Origin: a virus
DNA: 24,993 nt
Virus record (IMG/VR): IMGVR_UViG_3300025418_000073
Coordinates: 1-24,993 of that record
Reading direction: 5' to 3' (one strand)
Made by a program: the position numbers and the translations under genes. This document shows positions 83 to 17,277 of this stretch, in pieces. The first letter of the stretch is position 1. Each line of letters opens with the position of its first letter. Under the pieces are notes generated by a model. The model worked only from the letters and a program-made list of their open reading frames with translations, searched no databases and had not been told where the DNA came from.

Positions 83-256
83 ATGGCTGATAAGTGGATA
101 CAGGGTGCAATTCAAAAAGCAGGTGCTTTACGGGAAGCATTGCATGTCAAAGCAGGACATAACATTCCTGCTGCGAAACTTGAGAAAGCATCTCATGCTC
201 CGGGTAAACTAGGACAACGCGCTCGACTAGCGAAGACCCTTAAAGGGATGAAATGA
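83..256 (+). CDS. Small basic phage protein, 57 aa, function unknown
   Basis: Translates as a 57-residue Lys/Arg-rich protein starting MADKWIQGAIQKAGALREAL and ending in KTLKGMK. The pattern of W-I-Q near the start, then GALR, a second basic stretch KLEKA and the ending APGKLGQRARLAKTLK is one I recognise as a recurrent short protein in the head region of environmental tailed phages; no function is established for it. The high charge would suit binding DNA or an acidic capsid tail, which is inference. It starts two bases after the upstream stop, with TC before the ATG, and its TGA overlaps the next ATG (ATGA at 253-256). Confidence 0.75.
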   Translation: MADKWIQGAIQKAGALREALHVKAGHNIPAAKLEKASHAPGKLGQRARLAKTLKGMK

Positions 257-1167
257 CCACCAGTGGATCAGCAGTATTCAATCTTCCGTTCAATGAAATA
301 GCTGAAGAAGCATATGAACGGTGCGGTGTCGAGATGCGTACAGGCTATCAGCTTCGTACCGCTCGACGTAGCATGAATTTGCTGACGATAGAATGGGCAA
401 ATCGCGGGATTAATCTCTGGACGATCCAGCAAGGCGAAATACCTTTAGTCACGGGGCAAGTTTCATATCCCTTGCCGGATGACACCATTGACCTGCTCGA
501 TCATGTGATTCGTACCTATGAAGGTACAAACAATCAGCAAGACATTAACATTACACGTATATCGGAAACGATGTACTCAACGATCCCCAATAAGTTAGCG
601 CAGGGACGTCCTATTCAAGTCTGGATCAATCGTCAGACTGCACAAACTAATCCCACAACCATTCAGTTATCAAGTGCGATTACCGCTACCGCGACATCGA
701 TTGCGGTGACAAGTTCGGTGGGATTAGCGTCAGCGGGGATGGTCATCATCAACGGCGAACAGATTTACTACAACAATATCGAGAATAACGTCCTCAACCT
801 TTGTGCGCGTGGTCAGAATGGCACTACCGCCGCAGCACAGGCCGCAGGATCGTTTATTTCGGTCTACAACAATAACAGCATCAACGTATGGCCTACGCCC
901 GATGGCGGAACTCAATATACGTTTGTGTACTGGCGTTTACGCAGAATCCAAGATACGACTAGCGGTGCGCCCAATGAAGATATTCCTTTTCGCGCATTAC
1001 CTGCATTGATTTCAGGACTGACGTTCTACTTGTCTGGGAAAGTACCGGAAGCGTTTGCGCGGAGTGCAGAACTCAAAGCACAGTATGAAGAACAGTTCAA
1101 CATGATGGCGGGTGAGGATAGAGAAAAGGCGTCCTTGCGATTAGCCCCTAGACAGATGTTCTGGTAA
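253..1167 (+). CDS. Head-tail connector / adaptor-like virion protein with inserted beta domain
   Basis: 304 aa. Residues 10-60 form a helical N-terminus with the pattern RTARRSMNLLTIEWANRGIN, typical of gp4-like or gp11-like connector proteins of short-tailed phages. Residues about 206-304 resume the core (INVWPTPD, then DIPFRALPALISGL and a basic C-terminal helix). Between them, residues about 135-205 look like an independently inserted small beta domain with alternating Thr/Ser/Val strands and the pattern INGEQIYY followed by ARGQNGTTAAA, a module seen in many phage structural proteins. The role would be to join portal and tail. The start overlaps the previous stop and the stop overlaps the next start (TAATG), so it belongs to one long translationally coupled unit. 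The exact connector family is uncertain. Confidence 0.65.
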   Translation: MTTSGSAVFNLPFNEIAEEAYERCGVEMRTGYQLRTARRSMNLLTIEWANRGINLWTIQQGEIPLVTGQVSYPLPDDTIDLLDHVIRTYEGTNNQQDINITRISETMYSTIPNKLAQGRPIQVWINRQTAQTNPTTIQLSSAITATATSIAVTSSVGLASAGMVIINGEQIYYNNIENNVLNLCARGQNGTTAAAQAAGSFISVYNNNSINVWPTPDGGTQYTFVYWRLRRIQDTTSGAPNEDIPFRALPALISGLTFYLSGKVPEAFARSAELKAQYEEQFNMMAGEDREKASLRLAPRQMFW

Positions 1168-1776: not shown

Positions 1777-2081
1777 TGAAAGAAATTAACCCGACAAAAG
1801 CAGATAGTCCTGCTATCCACATTGATCGAAAAAAAAATAACGAGCCTGCTGAGTTTTATGCCAAACCTCATACGATGGATGGCAGAACGATTGACGGAAA
1901 TGAAGTCATGGAGCAGGGCGAATATTCCACCAATAAGTCCGCCAGAGAAGCTGGCATACGCGATCCTATTCCTAACGGGGTTAGCTTTGGCGCTTGTAAA
2001 GAGCCTAAGTCTTCTGGCATAGAGATGCGTGGCTTTGGTGCGGCAACAAAAGGTAAGATGTCCAGAGGACCGATGGCCTAA
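1776..2081 (+). CDS. Small accessory phage protein, 101 aa
   Basis: 101 residues, polar, without membrane segments. The C-terminus has the pattern SGIEMRGFGAATKGKMSRGP, which I recognise as a signature of a recurrent small protein in environmental phage genomes, always near connector genes; function unknown. A run of nine A residues lies in the coding sequence at 1829-1837 (Arg-Lys-Lys-Asn), the longest homopolymer I noticed in the window. It overlaps both neighbours by one base, so expression is coupled to the connector genes. Confidence 0.7.
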   Translation: MKEINPTKADSPAIHIDRKKNNEPAEFYAKPHTMDGRTIDGNEVMEQGEYSTNKSAREAGIRDPIPNGVSFGACKEPKSSGIEMRGFGAATKGKMSRGPMA

Positions 2082-3172
2082 TGTATTACGTTGACCTTGT
2101 TTCGGCGATCAACAATTACGCGGAAAACAACTTTCCGACGGCGGTTGTTAATCGTTTTATCGAGCAGTCTGAGCAGCGTATTTACAATGCTGTTCAGATT
2201 CCATCGTTACGCAAGAACGTAACAGGTCAAGTTAGCCCTGCTAATCCGTACTTATCATTACCATCAGATTGGCTTTCAACGTTTTCGTTGGCAGCTTATA
2301 CCTATGCGACCGGTACGGTTACGACTGTATCGGGAAGTAATACCATTACCTTTACAGGAATTACCGCTCAAGTCGGTCAGCAAGTGACGGGAACAGGTAT
2401 TCCTGCGGGAACGATTGTCCTCACAGGTGGAACGACCTCAGCGGTTTTGTCGGCTGACGCGACAGCCAATGGATCAGTCACGGCAGTATTCCAAGGTCCC
2501 TATGCATATCTCCTAAATAAAGACGTCAGCTTTATTCGGGAAGGATTTTCATATCCAACGACTACTGGATTGCCTTTGTATTACTCCCTGTTTGGGCCTC
2601 AAACAACCAATCAATTCAGCATGTCGTTCCTACTTGGTCCAACCCCGGATCAGGTGTACAACATGGAGTTGCACTACAACTACTATCCTACGTCTATCAT
2701 TCAGGCGCAGATCAATTCCTTGGGTAACCCCACTACTTCGGGAACGTTCACTAACGGTTCGTACTACAACACAGCATTGACGGGCGGTACGGGATCGGGA
2801 GCGATAGCAAACGTATTTGTATCCGGCGGTGTAGTTTCTTCTGTGACCTTGCTCGAAGCGGGAACAGGCTATGCCGTAGGCGATGTACTTACAGCGACAT
2901 TACCTTATACAACCGGTACGCCATCATGGAGTGTGTCGGTGACGGTGATTAATAATCCCACCGGAGAAACATGGTTGGGTGATTATTTTGATACTGCCTT
3001 GCTGAACTACTGCATGATGGAGGCAATTACATACACCAAGGGTGAGCAGGACTTGGTTGTGTTGTATCAGAAACGTGCAGATGATGCGTTAGAACTTCTC
3101 AAACAGTTGGGCGATGCGAAAGAGAAGGGTGATTCTTATCGTGATGGAAACCCAAAGTATAAAGTCAGATGA
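2081..3172 (+). CDS. SU10-type adaptor / head-tail connector protein with two inserted beta modules
   Basis: 363 aa. The helical N-terminus (residues 1-60, YVDLVSAINNYAE, then FIEQSEQRIYNAVQIPSLRK) and helical C-terminus (residues 296-350, ETWLGDYFDTALLNYCMMEA, then a long amphipathic helix) match the adaptor proteins that ring the portal in podoviruses. The core is interrupted twice: residues about 77-138 (VSGSNTITFTG, then GTGIPAGTIV) and about 219-290 (GTGSGAIANVFVSGG, then AGTGYAVGDVLTA) look like separate small beta domains common in phage structural proteins. The inserted modules probably point outward and decorate the neck. It overlaps the next gene by ATGA. The adaptor call rests on pattern memory rather than an alignment. 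Confidence 0.65.
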   Translation: MYYVDLVSAINNYAENNFPTAVVNRFIEQSEQRIYNAVQIPSLRKNVTGQVSPANPYLSLPSDWLSTFSLAAYTYATGTVTTVSGSNTITFTGITAQVGQQVTGTGIPAGTIVLTGGTTSAVLSADATANGSVTAVFQGPYAYLLNKDVSFIREGFSYPTTTGLPLYYSLFGPQTTNQFSMSFLLGPTPDQVYNMELHYNYYPTSIIQAQINSLGNPTTSGTFTNGSYYNTALTGGTGSGAIANVFVSGGVVSSVTLLEAGTGYAVGDVLTATLPYTTGTPSWSVSVTVINNPTGETWLGDYFDTALLNYCMMEAITYTKGEQDLVVLYQKRADDALELLKQLGDAKEKGDSYRDGNPKYKVR

Positions 3173-3585
3173 TAGTCCAAACGATCACCAACTCATTTAA
3201 GTCGGACATCCTGCAAGCAGCGCAAAATCTTGCAACGGATTCGTTGTATCTGGCTTTGTTTACCGCGTCAGCGAATTTAAACGCCAATACGGTTGCGTAT
3301 TCCAGCGCCAACGAAGTCACGAGCACAAACTATACAGCGGGCGGAAAATTAGTTACTGGCGTTACGATTACGACAGACACACAAAACAACATTGTGTACC
3401 TTAACTTTAATAACGTGACATGGACGAATGTTTCATTTGTTTGCCGTGGCGCTCTGCTTTACAATCAAACCCGAAGCAATCGTTCTATTGCGGTGTTGAA
3501 TTGGGGATCAGACAAAAACGCAGGACCTAACTTTGTCGTTACCCTACCCGCAAACACATCAACGACAGCCCTAATTAGGCTATAG
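3169..3585 (+). CDS. Small virion protein, paralogue of the gene at 3796
   Basis: 138 aa, starting at an ATGA overlap with the adaptor gene. A helical start (ITNSFKSDILQAAQNLA) is followed by a beta-rich body with many Thr, Asn and Ser. It shares with the protein encoded at 3796-4275 the block SSANEVTSTNYTAGG, a central LYNQTRSN-type segment and the ending NTSTTALIRL, so the two arose by duplication. Proteins of this kind sit beside tail-fibre genes in environmental phages; a minor tail or fibre-base role is inferred. No catalytic motif is visible. Confidence 0.65.
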   Translation: MIVQTITNSFKSDILQAAQNLATDSLYLALFTASANLNANTVAYSSANEVTSTNYTAGGKLVTGVTITTDTQNNIVYLNFNNVTWTNVSFVCRGALLYNQTRSNRSIAVLNWGSDKNAGPNFVVTLPANTSTTALIRL

Positions 3586-3795: not shown

Positions 3796-4275
3796 ATGGC
3801 AAATACCCAATCAATGTGTACTTCCTTTTTAGGACAGTTATTGTCTGCGGGGCATAACTTCGCAAGCAATAACGTGGCTCGTACCATTAACACAGCCGAT
3901 ACCTTTAAGGCGGCTTTGTATGTCACTACCGCAACGTTAAACGCGAGTACCACAACGTATTCATCGACTAACGAAGTAACCGGTACGAACTATACCGCAG
4001 GTGGCGTGACGGTAACGAACGCAACTAACCCGACCTCTACCAATACTTCAACTACCGCAGGGGTAGGATACTGGACGCCATCGGCAAGTATTGTATTTAG
4101 CAACGTGACGCTATCGACTGCGTTTGACACTATGTTGTTGTACAACTCATCTCAGTCTAACGCTGCGGTCGCTGTGTACACCTTTGGTTCGCAAACGATC
4201 ACTGCGGGTAACTTCACGCTGACCATGCCTTCCAATACTTCCACAACTGCTTTAGTTAGACTCCAGACCACCTAA
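3796..4275 (+). CDS. Small virion protein, paralogue of the gene at 3169
   Basis: 159 aa. It shares with the 138-residue protein upstream the block SSTNEVTGTNYTAGG, the segment LYNSSQSN and the ending NTSTTALVRL. It is about 20 residues longer, mostly through a Thr/Asn/Ser stretch after the shared block (NATNPTSTNTSTTAG). It is beta-rich with no signal peptide or catalytic motif. Its start has the TCATG context that recurs in this genome, and its stop overlaps a strong AAGGAG site for the following repeat protein. A tail or fibre-associated structural role is likely from context. Confidence 0.65.
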   Translation: MANTQSMCTSFLGQLLSAGHNFASNNVARTINTADTFKAALYVTTATLNASTTTYSSTNEVTGTNYTAGGVTVTNATNPTSTNTSTTAGVGYWTPSASIVFSNVTLSTAFDTMLLYNSSQSNAAVAVYTFGSQTITAGNFTLTMPSNTSTTALVRLQTT

Positions 4276-4285
4276 GGAGTAAGTC

Positions 4286-6445
4286 ATGTCGCTCGGCTGG
4301 GGTAACAACGGCTGGGGCGTTGATCCGTGGGGCGGCACAGTAATACCAACTGGCGTATCGGCTAGTGGTGTTACGGGGACAGCAGTTAGTAATATCTCTG
4401 TTGCGCTGACAGGAGTCAGTGCAGCAGGGAATACTGGCTCAGAGTTGCCCAATGTCACCGTAGCGTTAAGCGGGGTGGTAGCGGGAGGCTTTACCGGAAC
4501 AGTCACCCCTAATGCATCTGTAGCGGTCTCAGGATCGTCTGCAAGCGGCTTAACGGGTACGGTAACCGCAACGCCTACCTTTGCTCTATCGGGCGTCTTT
4601 GCAAGCGGGTTGACCGGAACGGTTAGCCCATCCTCTGCGGTATCAATCAGCGGTGTCTATGCCGCAGGATTGACGGGAAGCGTTACGCCAAACATTAGCG
4701 TAGCGACTTCAGGCGTATTCGCAACAGGCAGTCAGGGTTCAGAAAGCCCGAACATCACAGTTGCCCTTTCTGGCGTATACGCAAGCGGTTTAACAGGAAC
4801 TGTTACTCCAGTATTCAACATTGCGTTAAGCGGTGTAAGTGCATCTGGATTTACGGGTTCGGTTAGCGCAAACAACACAGTCTCTGTATCTGGCGTTGTC
4901 GCTAATGGTTTAACCGGCACAGCTACGGCTACGCCGACATTCAGTTTAAACGGCGTATCAGCAAGTGGCTTTACGGGTTCTGTATCGCCTAGCAGCAGTA
5001 TTACTGCATCGGGCGTCTTTGCCTCTGGTAATACGGGATCAGAATTACCCAACGTAACGGTAGCGCTTTCTGGCGTCTTTGGAAGCGCCTTTGTGGGTAC
5101 GGTTACTGCTTCGCCAAGTATTGCGATCAGTGGTGTTTCGGCGGCAGGGCTTACGGGTTCTGTTTCGCCAAGTTCGAGTATTGCCCTATCAGGCGTCAGC
5201 GCAAATGGCCTAACTGGAACAATTACTCCTGTTCAATCCATCGCAATCAGCGGCGTATCAGCGAGTGGATTTACTGGAAACGTCACTGCAAGTCCTTCTA
5301 TTGCGGTATCAGGTGTTAGCGCAAGCGGGTTTACCGGAACAGTTTCACCAAGTATAGATAAAGCGGTTAGCGGAGCTTCTGCGAATGGGCTGACCGGAAC
5401 CGTCACGGCTACACCGACCTTTGCATTAAGCGGAGTATTCGCAAGCGTATTGACAGGATCGGTATCGCCAAGTAGTTCCATTGGTATATCGGGCGTATTC
5501 GCGCAGGGCAATACAGGATCAGAGCTACCCAACGTCACCGTAGCCTTGTCAGGCGTCTTTGCGAGTGGATTCACAGGCACAGTCACACCTAACTTTAATA
5601 TCGCGACGAGCGGAGTATCAGCAGCAGGTCTAACGGGTTCCGTTACCCAAAGTAAAAATGTTGCGCTTTCTGGTGTTGCCGCCAATGGATTGACCGGGGC
5701 AGCTACAGCCACACCTCAAATTGCGGTAAGCGGCGTATATGGCAGTGGTTTTGTGGGTTCTGTCACCGCCGTTCCCACAATAGGTTTAAACGGCGTTGTC
5801 GCGGCAGGACTGACAGGCTTAGTATCGACAGGTAAAGATGCTGCGCTGTCTGGTGTTTACGCTACAGGAAACGCGGGATCAGAACTTCCGAACGTCACGG
5901 TTGCCTTATCAGGCGTACTGGCAAGCGGTTATGTCACTGCGCCGTTCCCTATCACGAGCAAGGCAATTAGCGGAGTAGCAGCATCAGGTTTAGTAGGTTC
6001 AGTTACTAACTCTAGCGCTATTGGTTTAAACGGCGTGGTCGCAGCAGGGCTGACAGGTACAATAACCACAACTTATACACAGGCATTAACAGGCGTCAGC
6101 GCGGCGGGTGTTGTTGGAACAGCTACACCTACGTATAGTCGCAGTATATCGGGAGTAACGGCAAGCGGGTCTGTTGGAAGCGTAGGAACGCCTAGAACGC
6201 TTGGACTTACGGGTGCAAAAGCGGATGGTATTTTAGGGGTCATTGGGTACTTTTATTGGAATCCAATAATAGACACGCAAATCCCTAATTGGATTGGTAT
6301 TATAGATACAGAATCGCCAAGCTGGGCGCAGATAAATGCTGATCAAAACCCAAGCTGGAATGGTATTATAGACACGGAAACTGCCAACTGGACGTCAGTC
6401 GATAACCATGATGATGTAATTTGGGAAACAATAACCACAGTATAG
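4286..6445 (+). CDS. Giant repeat protein of 20-residue units, fibre-like
   Basis: 719 aa. Residues 4-17 form a Gly/Trp motif (GWGNNGWGVDPWGG). Residues about 22-652 are tandem 20-residue units with the consensus ALSGVxAxGxTGxVTPxxxx, where the hydrophobic, Gly and Ser/Thr positions are kept. The final 65 residues switch to short Trp repeats (IIDTQIPNW, IIDTESPSW, ADQNPSW, IIDTETANW). A strong AAGGAG lies six bases before the ATG. The regular short repeat suggests a beta-solenoid or extended fibre shaft; location just before another fibre gene supports a host-contact or tail-appendage role. Similar GV-A-G-GT repeats occur in proteins of environmental phages, with no experimentally known role that I can name. 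Confidence 0.7.
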   Translation: MSLGWGNNGWGVDPWGGTVIPTGVSASGVTGTAVSNISVALTGVSAAGNTGSELPNVTVALSGVVAGGFTGTVTPNASVAVSGSSASGLTGTVTATPTFALSGVFASGLTGTVSPSSAVSISGVYAAGLTGSVTPNISVATSGVFATGSQGSESPNITVALSGVYASGLTGTVTPVFNIALSGVSASGFTGSVSANNTVSVSGVVANGLTGTATATPTFSLNGVSASGFTGSVSPSSSITASGVFASGNTGSELPNVTVALSGVFGSAFVGTVTASPSIAISGVSAAGLTGSVSPSSSIALSGVSANGLTGTITPVQSIAISGVSASGFTGNVTASPSIAVSGVSASGFTGTVSPSIDKAVSGASANGLTGTVTATPTFALSGVFASVLTGSVSPSSSIGISGVFAQGNTGSELPNVTVALSGVFASGFTGTVTPNFNIATSGVSAAGLTGSVTQSKNVALSGVAANGLTGAATATPQIAVSGVYGSGFVGSVTAVPTIGLNGVVAAGLTGLVSTGKDAALSGVYATGNAGSELPNVTVALSGVLASGYVTAPFPITSKAISGVAASGLVGSVTNSSAIGLNGVVAAGLTGTITTTYTQALTGVSAAGVVGTATPTYSRSISGVTASGSVGSVGTPRTLGLTGAKADGILGVIGYFYWNPIIDTQIPNWIGIIDTESPSWAQINADQNPSWNGIIDTETANWTSVDNHDDVIWETITTV
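4349..6240 (+). repeat. Tandem 60-bp coding repeat, 31 complete units
   Basis: From 4381 to 6240 the sequence reads as 31 consecutive units of exactly 60 bases, plus a partial unit from about 4349. I see no insertion or deletion between units: the Gly-Val and Gly-x-Thr-Gly codons fall at the same place in every 60-base line. Units differ mostly at third codon positions. A distinct unit type encoding GSELPNVTVALSGV recurs at about 4441, 4741 (variant ESPNI), 5041, 5521 and 5881; a second type encoding TATPTF recurs at about 4561, 4921, 5401 and 5701 (variant TATPQI). Confidence 0.9.
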
Positions 6446-6452
6446 GAAAATC

Positions 6453-9400
6453 ATGTCAACTTGGACGAGTAACCTTTATATACAGTTAATTGGGACCGGG
6501 GAACAGTCTGGTACATGGGGAACCACCACCAACGGCAACTTCCAGTACGTGTTTGAAGAAGCGATTGTAGGACGTACAACCGTTTCATTTTCCGATGCGA
6601 ACGTCACCCTAAGCGCGACACAGGCCACTACCGATCAAGCCTTTAGAAACGTATACCTAAACTGTACCGGTACAAACACGGCGCAGCGTAACTTGATCGT
6701 ACCTACGATCAACAAGAACTATATTGTTGAGAACAATACCACCGGCGGCTTTGGTATTCAGGTCATTACTGCGGCGGGAACAGGCATTGTCGTTCCTAAC
6801 GGATACAAAGCAGCGTTGTACGTAGATGGAACGAACGTTGTTACTGCGTTTAACTACCTGACCGCACTGGCCTCTCCATCTTTCACCAATACTTCTTTGA
6901 CCTCTGGGCGGGTGGTGTATTCCACCACAGGTGGACTACAGACCGACTCTGCTAACCTGACGTTCAACGGTACAACCTTAACGGCGAATACCTTAAACCT
7001 CACAAACGCCTTGGTTACGACCTATGGCGGCACGGGGTTAAGTTCCTACACAGCAGGTGATCTGCCTTATTACGCATCTGGAACCGCGCTGTCTAAGCTA
7101 GGGATTGGTACGTCCGGCTACATCCTGACCTCCAGTGGAACTGCCCCGCAGTGGAGCAACAGCATCAGCATTGGCTCAATCACTGCTACATCTATCACAG
7201 ACTCTGGCAACCTGACCTTTACAGGCACAGGAAGCCGTGTATTAGCCGACTTTACCAACGCGACTGTTACTAACCGTCTAGCGTTTCAGACCAGCACCAC
7301 AAACGGTACTACGGGTATTTACGCCCTGCCGAACGGTACGAGCACGGCGGCTTCATGGCAAGCGACTAACGCGGCTGATCCTACCAACGCCTCTAAGATT
7401 CTGATTGCGACTAACGGCTCTACAGACGTACAGCTTGTATCAGGGATTAACGGTACAGGTACATATCTGCCATTGAGTTTCTATACCAATGGTTCTCAGC
7501 AAATGCGCTTGGATACGTCTGGCAACCTAGGACTAGGTGTTACGCCGAGTGCTTGGGGGAGCGGTAAAGCAATTGATATATCTGTATTTACTGGTTTGTG
7601 GAGTCTTTCAACTCAAACTCATTTAATAAGTAATGGATATTGGAACGGCACAAACTATATTTATAAAACAACAAATGCAGCCGCTGATTATGCACAAATT
7701 GATAACACGCATCGTTGGTATATAGCCCCCTCCGGCACAGCAGGTAACACTATCACTTTCACTCAGGCGATGACGCTGGATGCTAGCGGTCGCCTCCTAA
7801 TCGGCACTACCTCTGCTAGTGGTTCTAACTATCTGCAAGTGAATAGTGATGCGCGTATTAACGGTATGACGGTGGGATTGGGTGGTGGTAGTGTTGTCTA
7901 TAACACGGCGGTAGGCGCAAGTGCTTTATCTTCTAATACAACAGGTGGATATAATGTTTCAGTTGGCTATGGAACACTTGGTTCTAATACGACCGCCAAT
8001 TACAACACTGCCATTGGTTATCAATCTCTCAACGCCAGCACAACAGCCAGTAGTATTACCGCAATTGGGTATCAAGCCGGATATACTGGAACTATTGGAA
8101 ACAGTGGTGATGTTTTTGTTGGATTTAAAGCGGGATATACAAAAAATACCGCATCCGATATATTTGCAACCACATTAGTTGGTGATGTAGCCGGAACTCT
8201 AATTACTACAGGTACCGATAATACAGGGTTTGGCGGATATTCTTTAAGTAGCACCACATCAGGTAGTCAAAACGTTGCTGTCGGCGGTGGTGCTTTGCGT
8301 TACAACACCACCGCCTCTTACAACACTGCCGTAGGTTATCAAGCTGGGTATAGTAATACGACTGGTGGAAATGGAGTATATGTTGGTGTTGGTGCTGGTT
8401 ATTCAAATACTACGGCAAATGACAATACATTTGTAGGTTGGAGCGCTGGTTATTTCAACACTACAGGAGCAAACAATACTTCTAGTGGCAGAAGTTCTCT
8501 TTATGCAAACACAACAGGAGGAGAGAATTCTGCTTACGGATGGGGTGCTTTAAATCAAAACACAATTGGTAATTATAATACTGCACATGGTTCTAGGTCA
8601 TTATTCTCAAACACCACCGCCTCTTCCAACACCGCTGTAGGTTTTCAGGCTGCCTATAGCAACACGACAGGAAATGTCAACGCCTTTGGTTATCAAGCTC
8701 TATATGCCAACACCACTGGAACTGAAAATGCTGCTTTTGGAAATGCTGCACTTGCAACAGTAACAACTGGAATCCAAAATGCTGCGTTTGGCGCTAGATC
8801 ATTACAATACAATACCGCAAATCAAAACTCAGGATTTGGTATTGCTGCTTTAGGTACAAACACAAGTGGTGGATCAAACGCTGCTTTAGGTTTTGCTGCT
8901 CTTTATTCAAATACCACAGGTAGCACAAATACCGCCGTAGGAAGTCAGTCTCTTTATTCAAACACCACCGCCTCTAACAATACTGCTGTTGGGTATCAGG
9001 CTGGATATACAAATACTACAGGCACTTCATTAACTGCTGTTGGTTACTATGCGTTAACCTTAAATACCACTGGTAACGGAAATACCGCTGTAGGTTTAAA
9101 TGCGGCTGTAAATAACACAAGCGGAAGTTCAAACAGTGCTTTCGGTCAACAGTCGCTTAATGCTAATACTACTGGTGGAAATAATACTGCGATTGGTTAT
9201 CAATCCCTACTTTCAAATACTACTTCAAATGGCAACACCGCTGTAGGTTTCCAAGCTGGGTATAGTACTACTGGTACTTATTTAACTGCGGTCGGCTACC
9301 AAGCTGGGTATAGCAACACTACAGGCGGTTCCACATTTATTGGTAATAAAGCTGCGTATTCAACAACTACAGGTGGAGATAATACTGTTGTAGGTGATTC

Positions 9401-10919
9401 TGCTTTATATACAAACACCACAGGTAACGTCAATGTGGCGATGGGAGTATCTGCTTTATATTTCAATACTACAGGTGCATCAAATGTGGCTATTGGAGTA
9501 TCAGCTTTAAGAGGAAACACCACCGCATCTAACAACACAGCAGTAGGGTATCAGGCGGCTTATTCAAATAGTACGGGTACGGGTATTGTTGCTGTTGGTT
9601 ATACAGCGTTGAAAGCAAATACCGCATCAAATAATACAGCCGTTGGAAATGGCGCAATGGCGTTAAATACAAGCGGAACATTTAATACCGCAGTAGGTGG
9701 TATTGAAGCTAGTGGTTATCCTGCGCTTTATTCTAATTTAACTGGTAATTACCATGTTGCTATTGGTGCTGGTGCTTTAGGTAAAACTGATGGCGCACAA
9801 TATAATGTGGCCGTAGGATATCAATCTTTATTCAGCAACACCACCGCTTCTTACAACACAGCAGTAGGTTATCAGTCTGGGTATAGTAGTACAGGACAAC
9901 AAGGAACTTTTATTGGATATTTTTCAGGGTATTACAATACATCTGGCGTAAGGAACACAGCGGTAGGATATGGTGCTTTTGCTACAGGCGGTTCGGTTGG
10001 AACGGGTTCAAACAACACTGCTATTGGTTCGTTAGCAAATCAAGCTAATACGTCTGGAAATTACAACGTTTCTGTTGGTGATTCTGCCCTTTACTCCAAC
10101 ACCACAGCTTCTAACAACACCGCAGTAGGTTATCAGGCTGGATATAGTAATACTACAGGAACAGGATTAACTGCTATTGGTTATCAAGCAGCATATTCAA
10201 ACTCAACAGGAGCTTCTTATACAACTGCTGTTGGTTGGCAAGCGTTATATGCAAACACAACTGGCTTATATAATACTGCCGTTGGTCAATCTTCTTTAAG
10301 TTCAAACACAACAGGTGGTAATAATTCTTCACTAGGATTGGCTTCTTTATCATCAAATACTACAGGCTCTAATAATGTTGCGATTGGTTCAAACGCTCTT
10401 TATTATAATTCCACAGCCGCTAACAACACCGCTGTAGGTTTTCAATCGGGTCAAAATATTACAACCGGTTCTAAAAATACCATCCTTGGTAGCTATTCAG
10501 GAAACTCAGGCGGCCTAGACATCCGCACAGCATCTAACTACTTAGTAATGTCTGATGGTGACGGCAACGTCCTCCAAGTAATAGATTCTGGTAAAGCTAC
10601 ATGGCAGCCATTAAGCCTTACGTCTAAATCTGCTGCTGCAACTTTAACACTAGCAATCTTGCAAACCGGAATGATCCAATATACCGGTTCTGCTGCGGCT
10701 CTGACGTTTGATACAGGTTCAAATATAGATGCAGCAGGTTCTATTGCGACTAATACCGCACTTCAATTTACCGTAGTCAATACTGGTTCTGGTACGGCTA
10801 CAGTAACCGCAGCAACAGGCGTTACAATCGTAGGTGTTGCAACTGTAGCGGCAACATCCTCTGGCACATTTAAGTTCCTCAAAACCGCAGCAAATACGTT
10901 TGTTGCTTATCGTATGTAA
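6453..10919 (+). CDS. Giant tail-fibre / adhesin-like protein with YadA-head-like repeats
   Basis: 1488 aa. Residues 1-135 form an N-terminal domain with the pattern GTGEQSGTWGTTTNGN and later VPNGYKAALYVDGTN, seen at the start of many environmental phage fibres and probably the virion-binding part. Residues about 136-483 are beta-rich Thr/Ser/Gly linkers (GGTGLSSYTAGDLPYYASG; LTFNGTTLTANTL). Residues about 484-1350 are roughly fifty 17-residue units around NTAVGYQAGYSNTTG, resembling the left-handed coil of trimeric adhesin heads. A capping segment (LDIRTASNYLVMSDGDGN) leads into a C-terminal beta domain of about 95 residues. No S74-type intramolecular chaperone is visible. Probable role: trimeric fibre for host recognition. 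Confidence 0.75.
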   Translation: MSTWTSNLYIQLIGTGEQSGTWGTTTNGNFQYVFEEAIVGRTTVSFSDANVTLSATQATTDQAFRNVYLNCTGTNTAQRNLIVPTINKNYIVENNTTGGFGIQVITAAGTGIVVPNGYKAALYVDGTNVVTAFNYLTALASPSFTNTSLTSGRVVYSTTGGLQTDSANLTFNGTTLTANTLNLTNALVTTYGGTGLSSYTAGDLPYYASGTALSKLGIGTSGYILTSSGTAPQWSNSISIGSITATSITDSGNLTFTGTGSRVLADFTNATVTNRLAFQTSTTNGTTGIYALPNGTSTAASWQATNAADPTNASKILIATNGSTDVQLVSGINGTGTYLPLSFYTNGSQQMRLDTSGNLGLGVTPSAWGSGKAIDISVFTGLWSLSTQTHLISNGYWNGTNYIYKTTNAAADYAQIDNTHRWYIAPSGTAGNTITFTQAMTLDASGRLLIGTTSASGSNYLQVNSDARINGMTVGLGGGSVVYNTAVGASALSSNTTGGYNVSVGYGTLGSNTTANYNTAIGYQSLNASTTASSITAIGYQAGYTGTIGNSGDVFVGFKAGYTKNTASDIFATTLVGDVAGTLITTGTDNTGFGGYSLSSTTSGSQNVAVGGGALRYNTTASYNTAVGYQAGYSNTTGGNGVYVGVGAGYSNTTANDNTFVGWSAGYFNTTGANNTSSGRSSLYANTTGGENSAYGWGALNQNTIGNYNTAHGSRSLFSNTTASSNTAVGFQAAYSNTTGNVNAFGYQALYANTTGTENAAFGNAALATVTTGIQNAAFGARSLQYNTANQNSGFGIAALGTNTSGGSNAALGFAALYSNTTGSTNTAVGSQSLYSNTTASNNTAVGYQAGYTNTTGTSLTAVGYYALTLNTTGNGNTAVGLNAAVNNTSGSSNSAFGQQSLNANTTGGNNTAIGYQSLLSNTTSNGNTAVGFQAGYSTTGTYLTAVGYQAGYSNTTGGSTFIGNKAAYSTTTGGDNTVVGDSALYTNTTGNVNVAMGVSALYFNTTGASNVAIGVSALRGNTTASNNTAVGYQAAYSNSTGTGIVAVGYTALKANTASNNTAVGNGAMALNTSGTFNTAVGGIEASGYPALYSNLTGNYHVAIGAGALGKTDGAQYNVAVGYQSLFSNTTASYNTAVGYQSGYSSTGQQGTFIGYFSGYYNTSGVRNTAVGYGAFATGGSVGTGSNNTAIGSLANQANTSGNYNVSVGDSALYSNTTASNNTAVGYQAGYSNTTGTGLTAIGYQAAYSNSTGASYTTAVGWQALYANTTGLYNTAVGQSSLSSNTTGGNNSSLGLASLSSNTTGSNNVAIGSNALYYNSTAANNTAVGFQSGQNITTGSKNTILGSYSGNSGGLDIRTASNYLVMSDGDGNVLQVIDSGKATWQPLSLTSKSAAATLTLAILQTGMIQYTGSAAALTFDTGSNIDAAGSIATNTALQFTVVNTGSGTATVTAATGVTIVGVATVAATSSGTFKFLKTAANTFVAYRM
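7902..10510 (+). repeat. Array of about fifty 51-bp (17-residue) coding repeats
   Basis: Imperfect tandem units encoding variants of NTAVGYQALYSNTTGxx. Most are 17 residues, some are one to several residues longer or shorter (for example at about 8090-8220, 9690-9790 and 9880-10020). A sub-type with a better-conserved DNA core (ACACCACCGCCTCT followed by an AAC-rich stretch) recurs near 8303, 8609, 8960, 9514, 9837 and 10098, about every five to seven units. Unlike the preceding gene, this array does have length variation. Confidence 0.85.
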
Positions 10920-11835: not shown

Positions 11836-12337
11836 TTGGTTAGATACTTTAGAGAAGTTAGCACCCACTGTTGCGTCAGCCCTTGGTAGTCCTGTAGCGG
11901 GTATGGCTGTCGGTGCTCTTGAGTCTGCTTTGGGTATGTCTGGTGATGACGTACAAAAGACGATTGAAACTGGCAAGTTAACAGGCGATCAAGTCGCTGC
12001 TATTCAGCAAGCTGAACTTGCGTTGAAAGCCAAAGCGCAAGAACTAGGACTGGACTTTGCCAAGCTAGGAAACGAAGATCGTGCTTCTGCTAGACAGATG
12101 CAGCAGAACGTTAAGTCATGGGTGCCTCCTTTTCTCGCGATTGCGGTCACTCTGGGATTCTTCGGAATACTGGTAGGTCTCATGTTAGGCAAGATCAATC
12201 AAGCGACCGAAGTAGACATTATGTTGGGAAGTCTTGGAACCGCATGGACAGGAATCGTATCTTTTTTCTTTGGTTCAAGCGCATCTAGCCAAAGCAAAGA
12301 TCATATGTTGTATAACTCTCAACCATTAAATAAATGA
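11828..12337 (+). CDS. Holin, GTA/3TM holin-like
   Basis: 169 aa. Residues 12-36 form a hydrophobic or amphipathic helix (APTVASALGSPVAGMAVGAL). Residues about 50-95 are a soluble helical segment with the family-like pattern GNEDRASARQM. Two strong spans follow at about 98-120 and 128-149 (ending VSFFFGSS). This order matches the 3TM holin family named for gene transfer agent release, whose members make the inner-membrane lesion that lets the endolysin out. A GGGAGG site lies just before the ATG. It is followed by an HNH gene overlapping the stop, then the M15 peptidase that is its likely lysis partner. Confidence 0.8.
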   Translation: MADWLDTLEKLAPTVASALGSPVAGMAVGALESALGMSGDDVQKTIETGKLTGDQVAAIQQAELALKAKAQELGLDFAKLGNEDRASARQMQQNVKSWVPPFLAIAVTLGFFGILVGLMLGKINQATEVDIMLGSLGTAWTGIVSFFFGSSASSQSKDHMLYNSQPLNK

Positions 12338-12765
12338 CGTATAAAGCGCGGGTTTGTAGGTCATGTTCTTTGGTTTTTCAGCCAAATACTTCTCGCGAGG
12401 CGTGGTGCAGCAATGATTGTCGCTTTAAGTCTCATATAAACCCTAAGTGGGATGTAAATGAATGTTGGGAATGGGATGGTGCTATATTTAAAAAAACAGG
12501 ATATGGTCAATTTGGCTCAGGAAAAAGCGGGGTTTATACCGCCCATAAGTATTCATATCAGTTGTTTAAAGGACAAGTTCCTGAGGGGTTATTTGTTTGT
12601 CACTCTTGCGATAACAGAAAGTGCTTTAACCCAAATCATTTGTGGGTTGGGACGCATGCAGATAACATGAACGACATGATACAAAAAGGCAGATCGACCC
12701 TTGGTAACAAATACCCGCAATGTTCGGGTGATAACCATTGGCGAAAGCGTAAGGAACAAAAATGA
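12334..12765 (+). CDS. Free-standing HNH homing endonuclease
   Basis: 143 aa. The N-terminus has a possible zinc knuckle (C8, C11, C25, C29). The HNH core follows the HNH_3 layout: CWEWDGAIFKKTGYGQF at 44-60, AHKYSYQLFKG at 70-80, then H90, CDNRKCFNPNHL at 92-103 and GTHADNMNDMIQKGR at 106-120. H90, N99 and H102 are the likely metal and catalytic residues. Such enzymes nick or cut phage DNA at a specific site and spread by repair into uninfected copies. It is more AT-rich than its neighbours and splits the holin-peptidase pair, both signs of a mobile gene. No intron boundary is apparent. Confidence 0.9.
   Translation: MTYKARVCRSCSLVFQPNTSREAWCSNDCRFKSHINPKWDVNECWEWDGAIFKKTGYGQFGSGKSGVYTAHKYSYQLFKGQVPEGLFVCHSCDNRKCFNPNHLWVGTHADNMNDMIQKGRSTLGNKYPQCSGDNHWRKRKEQK
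12751..12755 (+). promoter_or_regulatory. AAGGA ribosome binding site for the M15 peptidase inside the HNH gene
   Basis: AAGGA lies six bases before ATG 12762, within the last codons of the homing endonuclease gene. The holin end has no comparable site, so the inserted gene supplies translation initiation for the downstream peptidase. Confidence 0.6.
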
Positions 12766-13207: not shown

Positions 13208-15367
13208 ATGCCCCAGAAAAAGATAACGTTTAAACCGGGGGTTAACCAAGAGAATACTCGGTACGTTACTGAGGGCGGTTGGTACGACTGCGATAAGGTT
13301 AGATTCCGTCAAGGATTTCCGGAAAAGATTGGCGGTTGGGCGCAGCTATCTGGAAATACATTCTTAGGCGTTTGCCGATCTTTGTGGAATTGGGTCACGC
13401 TAGGCGGTTTAAACCTGCTTGGTGTAGGGACCAATCTAAAGTTTTACATCGAGGACGGCGGTGCGTATTACGACATTACGCCTCTGCGTTATTTAACAGG
13501 AACTGTAGCACTTTCTAATGCTTTTACCACAGCAAACGCATCGAACATCGTACAGGTTACGTCCACGGGGATTAATCTCTTCACTGGCGATACTGTTAAC
13601 ATTTATAACGTACAAACTGCTGTTAATGGTATTCCGGCGGCAGATTTCAACAAGCAGTTCACGGTTACCCGTGTAAACGCCAACAACTTTAATATCACCA
13701 CCGCAGACGCGGCGACTAGCCCCGGAACGGGCGGCGGTACGTTTAACGTCACTTACTTCACCTATTACTTCCCAATCCAAAGCATCGCTACCGTAAGCGG
13801 TTCTAGTACGGTGACGGTAAACGCGACAGGGAACGGCTGCGTAACAGGTGACTTCGTTTACTTCCCGACTTTGATCAGCTACAACGGCGTATCCATTCAA
13901 GGTTGGTATCAGATTACGTTAGCCCTTTCTGCGTCCTATACCATCACTGCTGGAACGAACGCATCAAGCTCTGGAACGGACGTCCTTTCTTCCTATTATG
14001 TCCAGTACCAAATCAACACTGGTACCTCCATAGCCGTTCCACAAACCGGATGGGGCGCAGGTGGATGGGGATTAGGAGCTTGGGGTTTAGGGGTTCAAGC
14101 GGTTCAGCAATTAGCATTGTGGTCACAAGCTAACTTTGGCGAGAACCTTGTGTTTGGACCGCGTGGTGGCGGTATGTATTATTGGGTCGCAACAAGCGGT
14201 GTAAATACGATTGGATACAACCTAGCACAGTCTTACAACGCTTCTGACGTGCCGACCATCCAGAACAATATCGTGATCTCAGATGCCTCTCGTTTTGTGT
14301 TGGCGTTGGGATGTAATGACTATGCATCCGATAGTCTTAATCCGATGTTGATTCGCTGGTCGGATCAGGAATCCACAATCAACTGGACACCTGCTGTAAA
14401 CAATCAGGCGGGAAGTCTGACCTTATCGCATGGATCAACGATTGTAGGGTTCATTCAAGCCCGTCAAGAGATCGTGGTCTTTACGGACTCTTCAGTATAT
14501 AGCCTTCAGTATCTTGGTCCTCCCGCCGTGTGGGGATCAACCCTCGTAGGTGAGAATACCTCTATCCTCAGTCCAAACGCGATGTCATTGGCATCTGGTA
14601 TTGTGTACTGGATGGGACGCGGGAAGTTCTATACCTACAACGGTACAGTCCAAACATTGAATTGCGACTTGCGTGAATTCATCTTCAGCAACATCAACCT
14701 ACAGCAGAACTTCCAAGTGTACTCAGGAACGAACGAGGCGTTTAACGAAGTCTGGTGGTTCTACTGCTCCGCAAACTCAACAGTCAACGATACCTATGTG
14801 ATCTACAACTACGTGGATCAGGCATGGTATTTTGGCTATCTTGGACGTACTGCATGGATTGATACAGGGCTACGCTCTTATCCGATTAGTGCTACGTACA
14901 ACAACAATCTGGTGTATCAAGAGTACGGCGTGGATGACAACACCACCGGAACGGCGGTACCGATTGATTCGTACATTCAGTCCTCTGAGTTTGATATTGA
15001 GGATGGAGATCGTTTCAGCTTCATCTGGCAGCTTCTGCCGGACGTTCGTTTCAACGGCTCTACCTCTAATTCTCCTGCGGTAACGATGACGCTCACGGGC
15101 TTACAAAACTCTGGATCGGGCATCAACAACGTCAGCATCAGCGCGGCAGGAACGAATATCGCATCTGTACAGCAGTATCAAAAGCCTATTCCCGCGAATG
15201 GAAGCACTAGCTCTGTAGTCATCGAGAAGTTCACCGGAACCGCTCCCGTGCGGGTACGTGGGCGTCAGCTTATCTTTAGAATCGAAGGCAATCAGCTAGG
15301 CTTACAGTGGCAGCTAGGCGCACCTAGAATTAACATCCGTCCTGACGGAAGAAGGGGAGACACATGA
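13208..15367 (+). CDS. Large tail protein, probable beta-propeller nozzle/hub
   Basis: 719 aa. The N-terminus (FKPGVNQENTRYVTEGGWYD, then FRQGFPEKIGGW and LGVGTNLKFYI) and the later blade-like segments (FVLALGCNDY, IVVFTDSSVYSLQYLG, MGRGKFYTYNG, EVWWFYC, WYFGYLGRTAWID) suggest a beta-propeller tail protein of the kind forming the nozzle of podoviruses (T7 gp12 / P22 gp10 functional class). Residues about 100-260 hold inserted beta modules resembling FCCH-like domains (TGDTVNIYNV, NNFNITTADAA). Residues 281-295 have the loop GWGAGGWGLGAWGLG. The C-terminus is beta-rich and ends with a basic, Arg-rich tail. The role is inferred from fold pattern and gene order. Confidence 0.65.
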   Translation: MPQKKITFKPGVNQENTRYVTEGGWYDCDKVRFRQGFPEKIGGWAQLSGNTFLGVCRSLWNWVTLGGLNLLGVGTNLKFYIEDGGAYYDITPLRYLTGTVALSNAFTTANASNIVQVTSTGINLFTGDTVNIYNVQTAVNGIPAADFNKQFTVTRVNANNFNITTADAATSPGTGGGTFNVTYFTYYFPIQSIATVSGSSTVTVNATGNGCVTGDFVYFPTLISYNGVSIQGWYQITLALSASYTITAGTNASSSGTDVLSSYYVQYQINTGTSIAVPQTGWGAGGWGLGAWGLGVQAVQQLALWSQANFGENLVFGPRGGGMYYWVATSGVNTIGYNLAQSYNASDVPTIQNNIVISDASRFVLALGCNDYASDSLNPMLIRWSDQESTINWTPAVNNQAGSLTLSHGSTIVGFIQARQEIVVFTDSSVYSLQYLGPPAVWGSTLVGENTSILSPNAMSLASGIVYWMGRGKFYTYNGTVQTLNCDLREFIFSNINLQQNFQVYSGTNEAFNEVWWFYCSANSTVNDTYVIYNYVDQAWYFGYLGRTAWIDTGLRSYPISATYNNNLVYQEYGVDDNTTGTAVPIDSYIQSSEFDIEDGDRFSFIWQLLPDVRFNGSTSNSPAVTMTLTGLQNSGSGINNVSISAAGTNIASVQQYQKPIPANGSTSSVVIEKFTGTAPVRVRGRQLIFRIEGNQLGLQWQLGAPRINIRPDGRRGDT

Positions 15368-15546: not shown

Positions 15547-15881
15547 TGCGTTATCAGAACGTTACTCCAGTACAATTAGGCCAAGCTGCGTTAACAACTA
15601 GCGTAGCAACGTTGTATACCGTTCCGAGCAGCACAAGAACCTACGTAAAAGGCATAGATATATGCAATACGTCTGGATCAACTATTACGGTGAATGTTTA
15701 TCTTGTTCCTTCGGGTGGTAGCGCTGGAACAGGTAATGCGCTGTTTTATGGTTTAAGCGTATCGGCTAACACAACCTATCATTGGGTGGGGACACAGATA
15801 TTGAACCCTGCTCAAACACTACAAGCATCCGCAAGCACAACAGGCTGTACGTTAATTGCAAGCGGCGGTGAGGCGACTTAA
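15546..15881 (+). CDS. Small beta-sandwich virion protein, 111 aa
   Basis: 111 residues, beta-rich: LYTVPSSTRTYVKGIDICNT, then ITVNVYLVPSGGSAG, WVGTQILNPAQTLQASAS and an ending LIASGGEAT. The strand pattern (TxVATLYTVP, then ICNTSG and VYLVPxGGSAG) is common in short tail or fibre-associated phage proteins. I chose ATG 15546 because it overlaps the upstream stop as TAATG, while an in-frame ATG at 15531 falls inside the previous gene. The stop overlaps the start of the acyl carrier-like gene, tying that gene to the virion transcript. A minor tail or decoration role is inferred. Confidence 0.65.
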   Translation: MRYQNVTPVQLGQAALTTSVATLYTVPSSTRTYVKGIDICNTSGSTITVNVYLVPSGGSAGTGNALFYGLSVSANTTYHWVGTQILNPAQTLQASASTTGCTLIASGGEAT

Positions 15882-16162
15882 TGGATTATTTGAAACTCTT
15901 TATCGAAGTTGCGCAAGTTTCACGCCCAACTTATAGAGACAAAATCAAGTTAACTGATTTAAACACTCCGCTGACAGCAACAGAACTGGATAGCCTTGAT
16001 TGCCTGATGATCGGTATGTATCTCTGCGAGATATACGGCATAGACGAAGAAGTGTCCAAAACTATGCAGCCTTCTACCCCGCAAGGGTATTTTGATTTCT
16101 GTAACGAACATAAAACACGCGAACCAAGTTCAGCGGAAGAAGCTTTGTCATGGATCGTATGA
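15881..16162 (+). CDS. Acyl carrier protein-like protein
   Basis: 93 aa. The centre reads ELDSLDCLMIGMYLCEIYGI, which fits helix II of acyl carrier proteins: S38 in D37-S38-L39-D40 would be the attachment serine for 4'-phosphopantetheine. The following stretch ends with STPQGYFDFCNEHK, placed like the last helix of ACP (TTVQAAIDYINGHQ in E. coli AcpP). The N-terminal 35 residues are helical but diverged. The size is close to the usual 75-90 residues, with a C-terminal extension of about 15. The GxDSL glycine is replaced (L36), so the host's transferase may or may not load it. It starts at a TAATG overlap and runs 13 bases into the ketosynthase gene, which strongly supports a working pair. Confidence 0.75.
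   Translation: MDYLKLFIEVAQVSRPTYRDKIKLTDLNTPLTATELDSLDCLMIGMYLCEIYGIDEEVSKTMQPSTPQGYFDFCNEHKTREPSSAEEALSWIV
16135..16139 (+). promoter_or_regulatory. GGAAG ribosome binding site for the ketosynthase
   Basis: GGAAG lies ten bases before ATG 16150. A second in-frame ATG at 16159 overlaps the upstream stop as ATGA but would be 19 bases from this site. The TC before ATG 16150 also matches the start context used by several other genes here, so 16150 is slightly favoured. Confidence 0.45.
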
Positions 16163-17277
16163 TTTACCTGACTGAAAAACGTATCGCTTATACCGAAGAA
16201 ACAACAAGCCTTCTGGACGTGATGTATCCCCAGAACGTGCATCTGTTCCCTGATACCTACGCCAAGACCAATACAGGCATGGTGTATCCCCCGCATAAAC
16301 TTGCGGATAAAGTCATTGATCCTGAAATCATGGAGCGTAGTCGAGATAATCCTATCCGTACCGCCTTTATTCTTGCCGCAGGAAACGCTCACTTTGCGGG
16401 TTTAAACCCAAAGGATAAAGAGCCTAACTGCCTAAGCTATGACTACAAGCCCTTGCCTATGACGTTAACGCAGGTCTATGCGGGGCGTATAGCGGCTGCA
16501 TTTGGTGCGACAGATTTAGTCGTCACGGATGCATCAGCTTGCGCATCAAGTTTAAAGGTCATGATGGATGTACAGACCTACATACGCAACTATGCGTTTG
16601 ATCGCGTGATTGTGTTGGGCGTAGAAGATGCTGTGAGTAATACGGTATTGAACTTCTTTGGTCAATCTGGCGCATCCTTAACCTTAGAGAAAGAAAAACA
16701 AGGCGAAATACGCAGTGCGTTTGATCCGGTAAACGGTGGATTCTATGTCGGTCAAGGTGCCGTTTTTGCTATGTTTGAGACCGAAAGAAGCATCAGATAC
16801 AGCGGAAATACTCCTTGTGCGGAGCTTATTAGCGCCTATTCAGCCAGCGAGCATAGTACCAATGCCATCGGTCAGCGCGAGGACGGACAGGGGTTTAAAC
16901 GGGCGATACAGGGCGTGGTTTACGGCGGGAATGTAGATTTAAACAAGATACGGCTGGTGAAAACGCATGGCACAGGAACGAAGTCGAATGACTTAGCAGA
17001 ACGAACGGCTTTGACAGCTACGCTCAAAGAGTTTCAAGCAACATCGTTTAAACAGAGAATTGGTCATACGATGGGCGCAAGCGGCTTGCTCGAGACTATA
17101 CTCTTGTTAGATAATGTAAAAAACGGTTTAGTACCTGCCATTCCTAACCGTACAGACGAAGATAGTATCTTTTTAAGCAAACCTGTCCCCGCAGAGAGGG
17201 GAGGATTGATTTTAAGTCTTGCGGCTGGAATGGGTAATATCTATTCAGCGGCAATCTTTAAGGACTTGCAATGCTGA
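16150..17277 (+). CDS. Beta-ketoacyl-ACP synthase (thiolase-fold ketosynthase)
   Basis: 375 aa. It carries the full active-site set of KAS I/II enzymes: nucleophile C131 in DASACASSLKVM, H273 in KTHGTGTKSNDLAE, and K301 with H306 in KQRIGHTMGASG. The Lys-to-His gap of five equals that of E. coli FabF (K335/H340), and the Cys-to-His gap (142) is close to FabF's 140. Other family blocks are VYAGRIAAAFGA, GGFYVGQGAVFAMFE and a short C-terminal Gly loop (AAGMGN) where FabF has GFGGTN. The N-terminal 100 residues are diverged, and the protein is about 35 residues shorter than FabF. It would condense an acyl chain with malonyl-ACP. Numbering uses ATG 16150; the alternative is 16159. The downstream gene overlaps its stop. 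Confidence 0.85.
   Translation: MDRMIYLTEKRIAYTEETTSLLDVMYPQNVHLFPDTYAKTNTGMVYPPHKLADKVIDPEIMERSRDNPIRTAFILAAGNAHFAGLNPKDKEPNCLSYDYKPLPMTLTQVYAGRIAAAFGATDLVVTDASACASSLKVMMDVQTYIRNYAFDRVIVLGVEDAVSNTVLNFFGQSGASLTLEKEKQGEIRSAFDPVNGGFYVGQGAVFAMFETERSIRYSGNTPCAELISAYSASEHSTNAIGQREDGQGFKRAIQGVVYGGNVDLNKIRLVKTHGTGTKSNDLAERTALTATLKEFQATSFKQRIGHTMGASGLLETILLLDNVKNGLVPAIPNRTDEDSIFLSKPVPAERGGLILSLAAGMGNIYSAAIFKDLQC

Follow-up and report, generated by a model that had tools for sequence, protein, structure and literature searches.

An old, in-register array of 20-residue units in a putative tail-appendage protein of an uncultured phage

The window, a stretch of 24,993 nucleotides of viral DNA that is the IMG/VR record IMGVR_UViG_3300025418_000073 from position 1 to 24,993, contains a gene for a protein with 32 consecutive units of 20 residues each. 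The array is real and old. There is about an even chance that it forms a beta-solenoid-like shaft of a tail appendage and that the protein is a structural tail protein; we infer its location in the virion, its role as a shaft, the fold, the orientation and the binding by its ends. The strict unit length is a habit of the protein family and not a proven molecular ruler. Judged by its tail genes, the source appears to be an uncultured phage related to the phages DSL-LC04 and HTVC023P. The array gene is composed of the following parts:

4286–6445, plus strand: array gene (open reading frame) for 719 amino acids, with N-terminal cap, 32 units of 20 residues and C-terminal Trp repeat
4286–4348, plus strand: N-terminal Trp/Gly cap MSLGWGNNGWGVDPWGGTVIP, from the sequence and the comparison of the family
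4349–6268, plus strand: 32 units, all exactly 20 residues long, with a degenerate final unit, from a unit chain search
6269–6442, plus strand: C-terminal domain with a Trp every 11 residues, from the sequence

The ATG is preceded by a ribosome-binding site, AAGGAG, at a distance of 7 bases, and the Trp/Gly cap comprises 21 residues. When the DNA was arranged in rows of 60 bases starting from position 4349, nearly every row encoded (S/T/N)G(V/A/S)xAxGx(T/V)Gx..., with few exceptions, and the unit consensus of the window was SGVxASGxTGxVTPxxTVAL. The original prediction of an indel-free 60-bp array in perfect register was borne out: the chain search gave 32 unit starts, and all 31 spacings between them were 20 residues. 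Its count of 31 units was a fair one, since unit 32 (6209–6268) is degenerate and grades into the C-terminal domain. The amino acid identity at a lag of 20 residues was 0.461, compared to 0.117 ± 0.012 in shuffled sequences with a maximum of 0.158 among 2,000 shuffles. Some unit sub-types recur, GSELPNVTVAL in units 2, 12, 20, and 26 with GSESPNITVAL in unit 7, and TATPTF in units 4, 10, and 18, and this recurrence suggests that blocks of units were duplicated long ago. An assembly collapse as the origin of the array was rejected, because no pair of units exceeds 75% DNA identity and a second, identical contig of 4,987 bp (L001, metagenome 3300006121) has this array too. The C-terminal domain, IDTQIPNW-IGIIDTESPSW-AQINADQNPSW-NGIIDTETANW-TSVDNHDDVIW, is a second repeat of fixed length in the same protein, with several copies.

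The units are diverged at the DNA level, and mostly at silent positions, as had been claimed: the mean pairwise identity was 0.495 with a maximum of 0.75, and only 0.29 of the third codon positions were identical. Due to this divergence, Tandem Repeats Finder did not report the array, even at a score of 30. At residues shared between units, the codons matched with a frequency of 0.304, compared to 0.270 ± 0.007 after shuffling of codons within each amino acid, so that the silent sites are close to saturation but retain a small signal. Units 4 and 18, for instance, agree in 18 of 20 residues but in only 4 of these 18 codons, and codon usage was near random in unit pairs with 85 to 95% protein identity. 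The same near-random silent sites were found between the units in the arrays of the relatives. As a control, the orthologous genes for the neighboring PHROG 644 protein were compared in 91 phages. At 85 to 90% protein identity, the codon match was 0.45 with 0.36 expected, and it was 0.42 with 0.37 expected for the pair formed by the window and the relative L003 (89% identity). The silent divergence of the array needs no special cause, because the orthologs of a neighboring gene are also close to silent saturation. Nearly saturated silent sites together with a conserved protein are thus usual in the phage group of the window, and the saturation is a sign of the age of the array and not of codon engineering. 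This agrees with the old divergence that had been proposed, with a conserved register. The codon match of adjacent units was slightly below expectation (0.262 versus 0.283). Selection for codon diversity as a protection against recombination was considered and rejected, because the PHROG 644 orthologs are equally near saturation at this level of protein identity and because the overall codon match was slightly above, not below, that of the shuffled sequences.

The array gene is located in the following genomic context:

253–1167, plus strand: SU10-type tail adaptor protein (PF24175), related to the adaptors of DSL-LC04, HTVC023P, and CRP-901
2081–3172, plus strand: SU10-type tail adaptor protein (Pfam PF24175, E 1e-10)
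3169–3585, plus strand: second PHROG 644 paralog (PHROG)
3796–4275, plus strand: PHROG 644 protein, directly upstream of the array gene (PHROG)
6453–10919, plus strand: tail fiber gene for 1,488 amino acids, directly downstream of the array gene (PHROG virion and tail spike families)
13208–15367, plus strand: PHROG 3287 virion protein, named “stabilization” or “needle head” protein in relatives (PHROG)

A PHROG 644 gene was directly upstream of the array gene in 105 of 110 plus-strand relatives, and the N-terminal domain of the fiber of the window was also encoded directly downstream in 67 of 110, the others having no recognized fiber or reaching the end of the contig. This position between the adaptor/PHROG 644 region and the fiber was counted in favor of a tail-appendage shaft. 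In phage DSL-LC04, the gene order around the array homolog is the same as in the window.

Other features of this region were also noted. Both SU10-type adaptors contain an extra internal segment that matches fiber and baseplate PHROGs, and the fiber itself carries many NTTGxxNTAVGYQ-type repeats resembling YadA-head repeats. A gene for a FabF-like beta-ketoacyl-ACP synthase (16150–17277, plus strand; Pfam PF00109/PF02801, E 3e-30) is located within the structural module, with intact Cys (DASACASS) and His (THGTGT and GHTMGASG) motifs, and phage MW202545 possesses a gene 58% identical to it. The small protein encoded directly 5' of the synthase (15881–16162, plus strand) contains an LDSLDCL motif like the DSL site of acyl carrier proteins and had no match in Pfam or NCBIfam. 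An HNH endonuclease gene (12334–12765, plus strand) is situated between a holin-like gene and a gene for an M15 endolysin.

The relatives were picked by similarity, with up to 80 loci per search and with fragments being common. With the window protein as query, only the identical contig was recovered and no annotated phage; a tblastn search of the full-length protein against phage records gave no match, probably because the repeats were masked as low complexity. The neighboring PHROG 644 gene as query yielded at least 80 loci, most of them with an adjoining array gene, and the family profile yielded at least 80 loci and at least 569 confirmed candidate stretches in IMG/VR. The pooled set contained 111 distinct proteins, that of the window and 110 homologs, of which 99 were complete, in 64 clusters at 70% identity. 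Almost all relatives came from uncultured phages, apparently of freshwater origin to judge from the lake origin of DSL-LC04; one was on a contig binned as Armatimonadetes, which is likely a viral contig. The sole confident annotated homolog was WJZ48131.1, a hypothetical protein of DSL-LC04 (OR003939, Dishui Lake), and weak matches were seen in MW202675 and CRP-345. WJZ48131.1 shares with the window protein the GWG-rich N-terminal part, GVQGTGQVGTVTV repeats, the C-terminal Trp repeat with a period of 11 and the place before the fiber gene, but its units are 22 residues long and broken by Trp/Gly segments, and it is about half as long.

The family unit has the consensus TGVxASGxVGTVxxxxxxAL. 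The window protein shares the traits of the family, which are a unit of 20 to 22 residues with G2, A5, G7, and G10, an N-terminal cap either of the Trp/Gly type, as in the window, or of the type MFG..PF..PF (MFG-PF), the C-terminal Trp repeat with period 11, and the location between PHROG 644 upstream and a fiber gene downstream. The distance between successive C-terminal Trp residues was 11 in 196 of 200 cases in the family, and this repeat matched no Pfam family. Searches of the window protein against Pfam, PHROG, and NCBIfam gave insignificant matches only (Phage_tube, E 0.38; glycogen synthase, E 0.04), and Pfam revealed no enzyme signature in it; searches of 32 members against Pfam and PHROG gave nothing useful, and PDB sequence searches with a single protein, the family profile, or a three-unit profile identified no relative. 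Searches of the literature for tail proteins of this type, by repeat number or by beta-solenoid, found nothing relevant. The window protein is a member of a family that is common but had not been described and that probably consists of tail-appendage proteins.

The number of units, the comparison of which had been suggested for related phages, varied from 4 to 32 with a mode of 11, the window array being the longest. The 64 clusters were distributed to arrays of 4 (2 clusters), 6, 8, 9 (4), 10, 11 (21), 12 (5), 13 (9), 14 (7), 16 (3), 17, 19, 20 (5), 26, 28, and 32 units, with one cluster each where no number is given. Taken by themselves, the neighbor-anchored set (13 of 38) and the profile-found set (8 of 25) each had a mode of 11. 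Closely related pairs differed by whole units, by 41 residues in L124/L144, 62 in L009/L011, and 41 in L107/L129, and some alignments of close relatives end in the middle of the array, as mosaic recombination would give. Recent duplications were rare; unit blocks of about 75 to 88% DNA identity occurred in only a few arrays, among them L099, L026, and L126.

The spacing of the units in the relatives was 20 residues in 80% and mainly 21, 16, 18, or 22 in the remainder, and only 13 of the 64 clusters, including that of the window, had arrays exclusively of 20-residue units. The deviations were positional, with an array ending of 16, 20, and 21 recurring in one large subgroup, and the change occurred after residue 12, within residues 13 to 18, leaving residues 1 to 12 with TGVxAxGxVGT intact. 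Freely varying unit length in related phages had been named as an observation that would speak against the original prediction; this applies in part, since variation was found, albeit discrete and confined to this part of the unit. The proposed strong selection on the rise of each unit is upheld in part, by the whole-unit changes and the protected core, whereas strict selection on unit length is not supported, because about 20% of the junctions deviate and so few clusters are all-20.

Across 872 distinct 20-mers, G2, A5, G7, and G10 were conserved to 88 to 97%, positions 4, 8, 14, and 16 varied freely, and V3, V9, V12, I/V18, and L20 were the hydrophobic positions. This column pattern fits a coil with a thin core and alternation of core and surface positions. 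A TxT ladder as in ice-binding proteins was rejected, because Ser and Thr replace each other and none of the columns is strict. AlphaFold gave a mean pLDDT of 48.6 and a pTM of 0.36 for the window protein with a 32-row alignment, and 45.9 and 0.38 for the 266-residue homolog of L003. About three short strands per unit were predicted at low confidence, at the same places in most units, with the best confidence at residues 280 to 340 of the window model (pLDDT up to 76). Using this low-confidence model, Foldseek retrieved beta-helix lyases and tailspikes from the PDB with a best E value of 0.01 and none reaching 0.001, and a predicted right-handed beta-helix protein as the first match among viral models (E 3e-5, TM 0.11). 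VIA-align of residues 71 to 421 placed the tailspikes of Phi92, CBA120, Sf6, and Pam1 first (Z 15 to 17); beta-helix matches had Z scores of 12 to 17, leucine-rich repeats 13 to 14, and Qnr 12.9. The low pLDDT and pTM values, the weak PDB matches and the good scores of leucine-rich repeats and Qnr make the fold a putative one. The structural matches of the model suggest “solenoid-like,” nothing finer. The beta-solenoid named in the original prediction is accordingly kept as the best structural guess, backed by the predicted strands and the beta-helix and solenoid matches at a low confidence (pLDDT 49).

Known systems resemble the array in part. Right-handed parallel beta-helix tailspikes (P22, Sf6, Phi92 gp150, and cyanophage Pam1) share the tail-appendage context and the idea of one coil per repeat and are the top matches of the low-confidence model; no sequence similarity to them was found in the PDB searches. 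The coils of tailspikes are irregular, without a sequence repeat and with catalytic grooves. Pentapeptide-repeat proteins (Qnr/MfpA) also have 20 residues per coil, but the array has no A(D/N)LXX pentads and no Pfam pentapeptide match.

In a beta-solenoid-like shaft, each 20-residue unit would be one coil of about three short beta strands with Gly-containing turns, and the coils would form a narrow beta-solenoid or a shaft of stacked beta strands similar to one. Attachment may be through the Trp/Gly cap at the N-terminus and the 11-residue Trp repeat at the C-terminus, with one of these ends probably joined to the adaptor/PHROG 644 region and the other to the fiber or the host surface. An indel within a unit would disturb the stack unless it occurred in the loop of residues 13 to 18, and gain or loss of a whole unit would alter only the length of the shaft, while point changes would pile up until the silent sites are random. 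If one unit is one coil, arrays should drift in unit number (4 to 32, usually 11) and rarely in unit length. The intact residues 1 to 12 in the length variants and the whole-unit differences were counted in favor of this coil-per-unit shaft, and the spacings other than 20 in some members, including 22 throughout the DSL-LC04 repeats, against it.

The main rival to a single-chain solenoid is a homotrimeric fiber in which three chains share the core, as in a triple beta-spiral or an intertwined beta-helix; this is possible, albeit on the doubtful side. Most phage tail fibers are trimers, the positions likely to point inward are occupied by very small residues (A5, G7, T/V9), in keeping with a core that is shared or very thin, and a low confidence of the monomer model is often seen with obligate trimers. 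Nevertheless, the strands of the monomer model recur at regular positions from unit to unit. Moreover, the triple beta-spiral has a period of 15 residues and the T4 gp5 helix one of 8, neither being 20; the VxGxxxxx octapeptide repeat of the gp5-type triple-stranded beta-helix does not occur in the array, and the autocorrelation of the protein peaks at 20 and its multiples, with other listed lags weak (35, 45, 65, 85, and 105) and none from a period of 8. That the array is a flexible low-complexity linker or a decoy surface without a defined fold, such as a Ser/Thr/Gly-rich tether, would agree with the small polar composition and the mean pLDDT below 50, but is improbable in view of the near-invariant G2/A5/G7/G10 and the alternating hydrophobic residues over hundreds of diverged units, and of the strict register, whereas linkers freely tolerate changes in length.

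A molecular ruler, in which the unit number sets a functional length held by selection, had also been proposed and is now quite unlikely. The sharp peak at 11 units across different caps speaks for it, but this mode may result from shared ancestry, the range of 4 to 32 units and the differences between close relatives argue against it, and unit number showed no correlation with downstream fiber length (rho 0.14, p 0.37, 43 genes). In addition, when 11-unit arrays of different phages were compared, units of equal index were only slightly more alike than units of unequal index (0.45 versus 0.40), the first and last units being exceptions. Type VIII secretion genes containing curli repeats are present in HTVC023P-type phages (pelagiphages; PMC9599517). 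Like the repeats of CsgA and CsgB, the units of the array are short, contain Gly, are near 20 residues in length and come from a related phage lineage. A phage-encoded curli-like amyloid fiber is very improbable, however, because the Pfam curlin repeat was found in none of 32 members, a Gln/Asn ladder is lacking, and the gene is part of a tail module with no csgF or csgG seen adjoining. The CsgA unit has 22 to 23 residues.

For the preferred beta-solenoid-like shaft, dimensions can be estimated. Known beta-solenoids rise by 4.8 Å per coil; with this rise, 11 units would be about 5 nm and 32 units about 15 nm long. The family may, with a chance somewhat below even, represent a widespread unnamed class of tail-appendage repeats, a new beta-solenoid with a 20-residue Gly/Ala-cored coil, Trp/Gly caps and an 11-residue Trp repeat, which evolves as whole coils are gained or lost in register and as phages recombine with one another, the standard length being 11 coils. 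With a profile of the 20-residue unit, a tail protein could be annotated in many phage genomes, and the naturally occurring arrays of 4 to 32 units, all on one architecture, offer a ready test of repeat number against appendage length and host contact.
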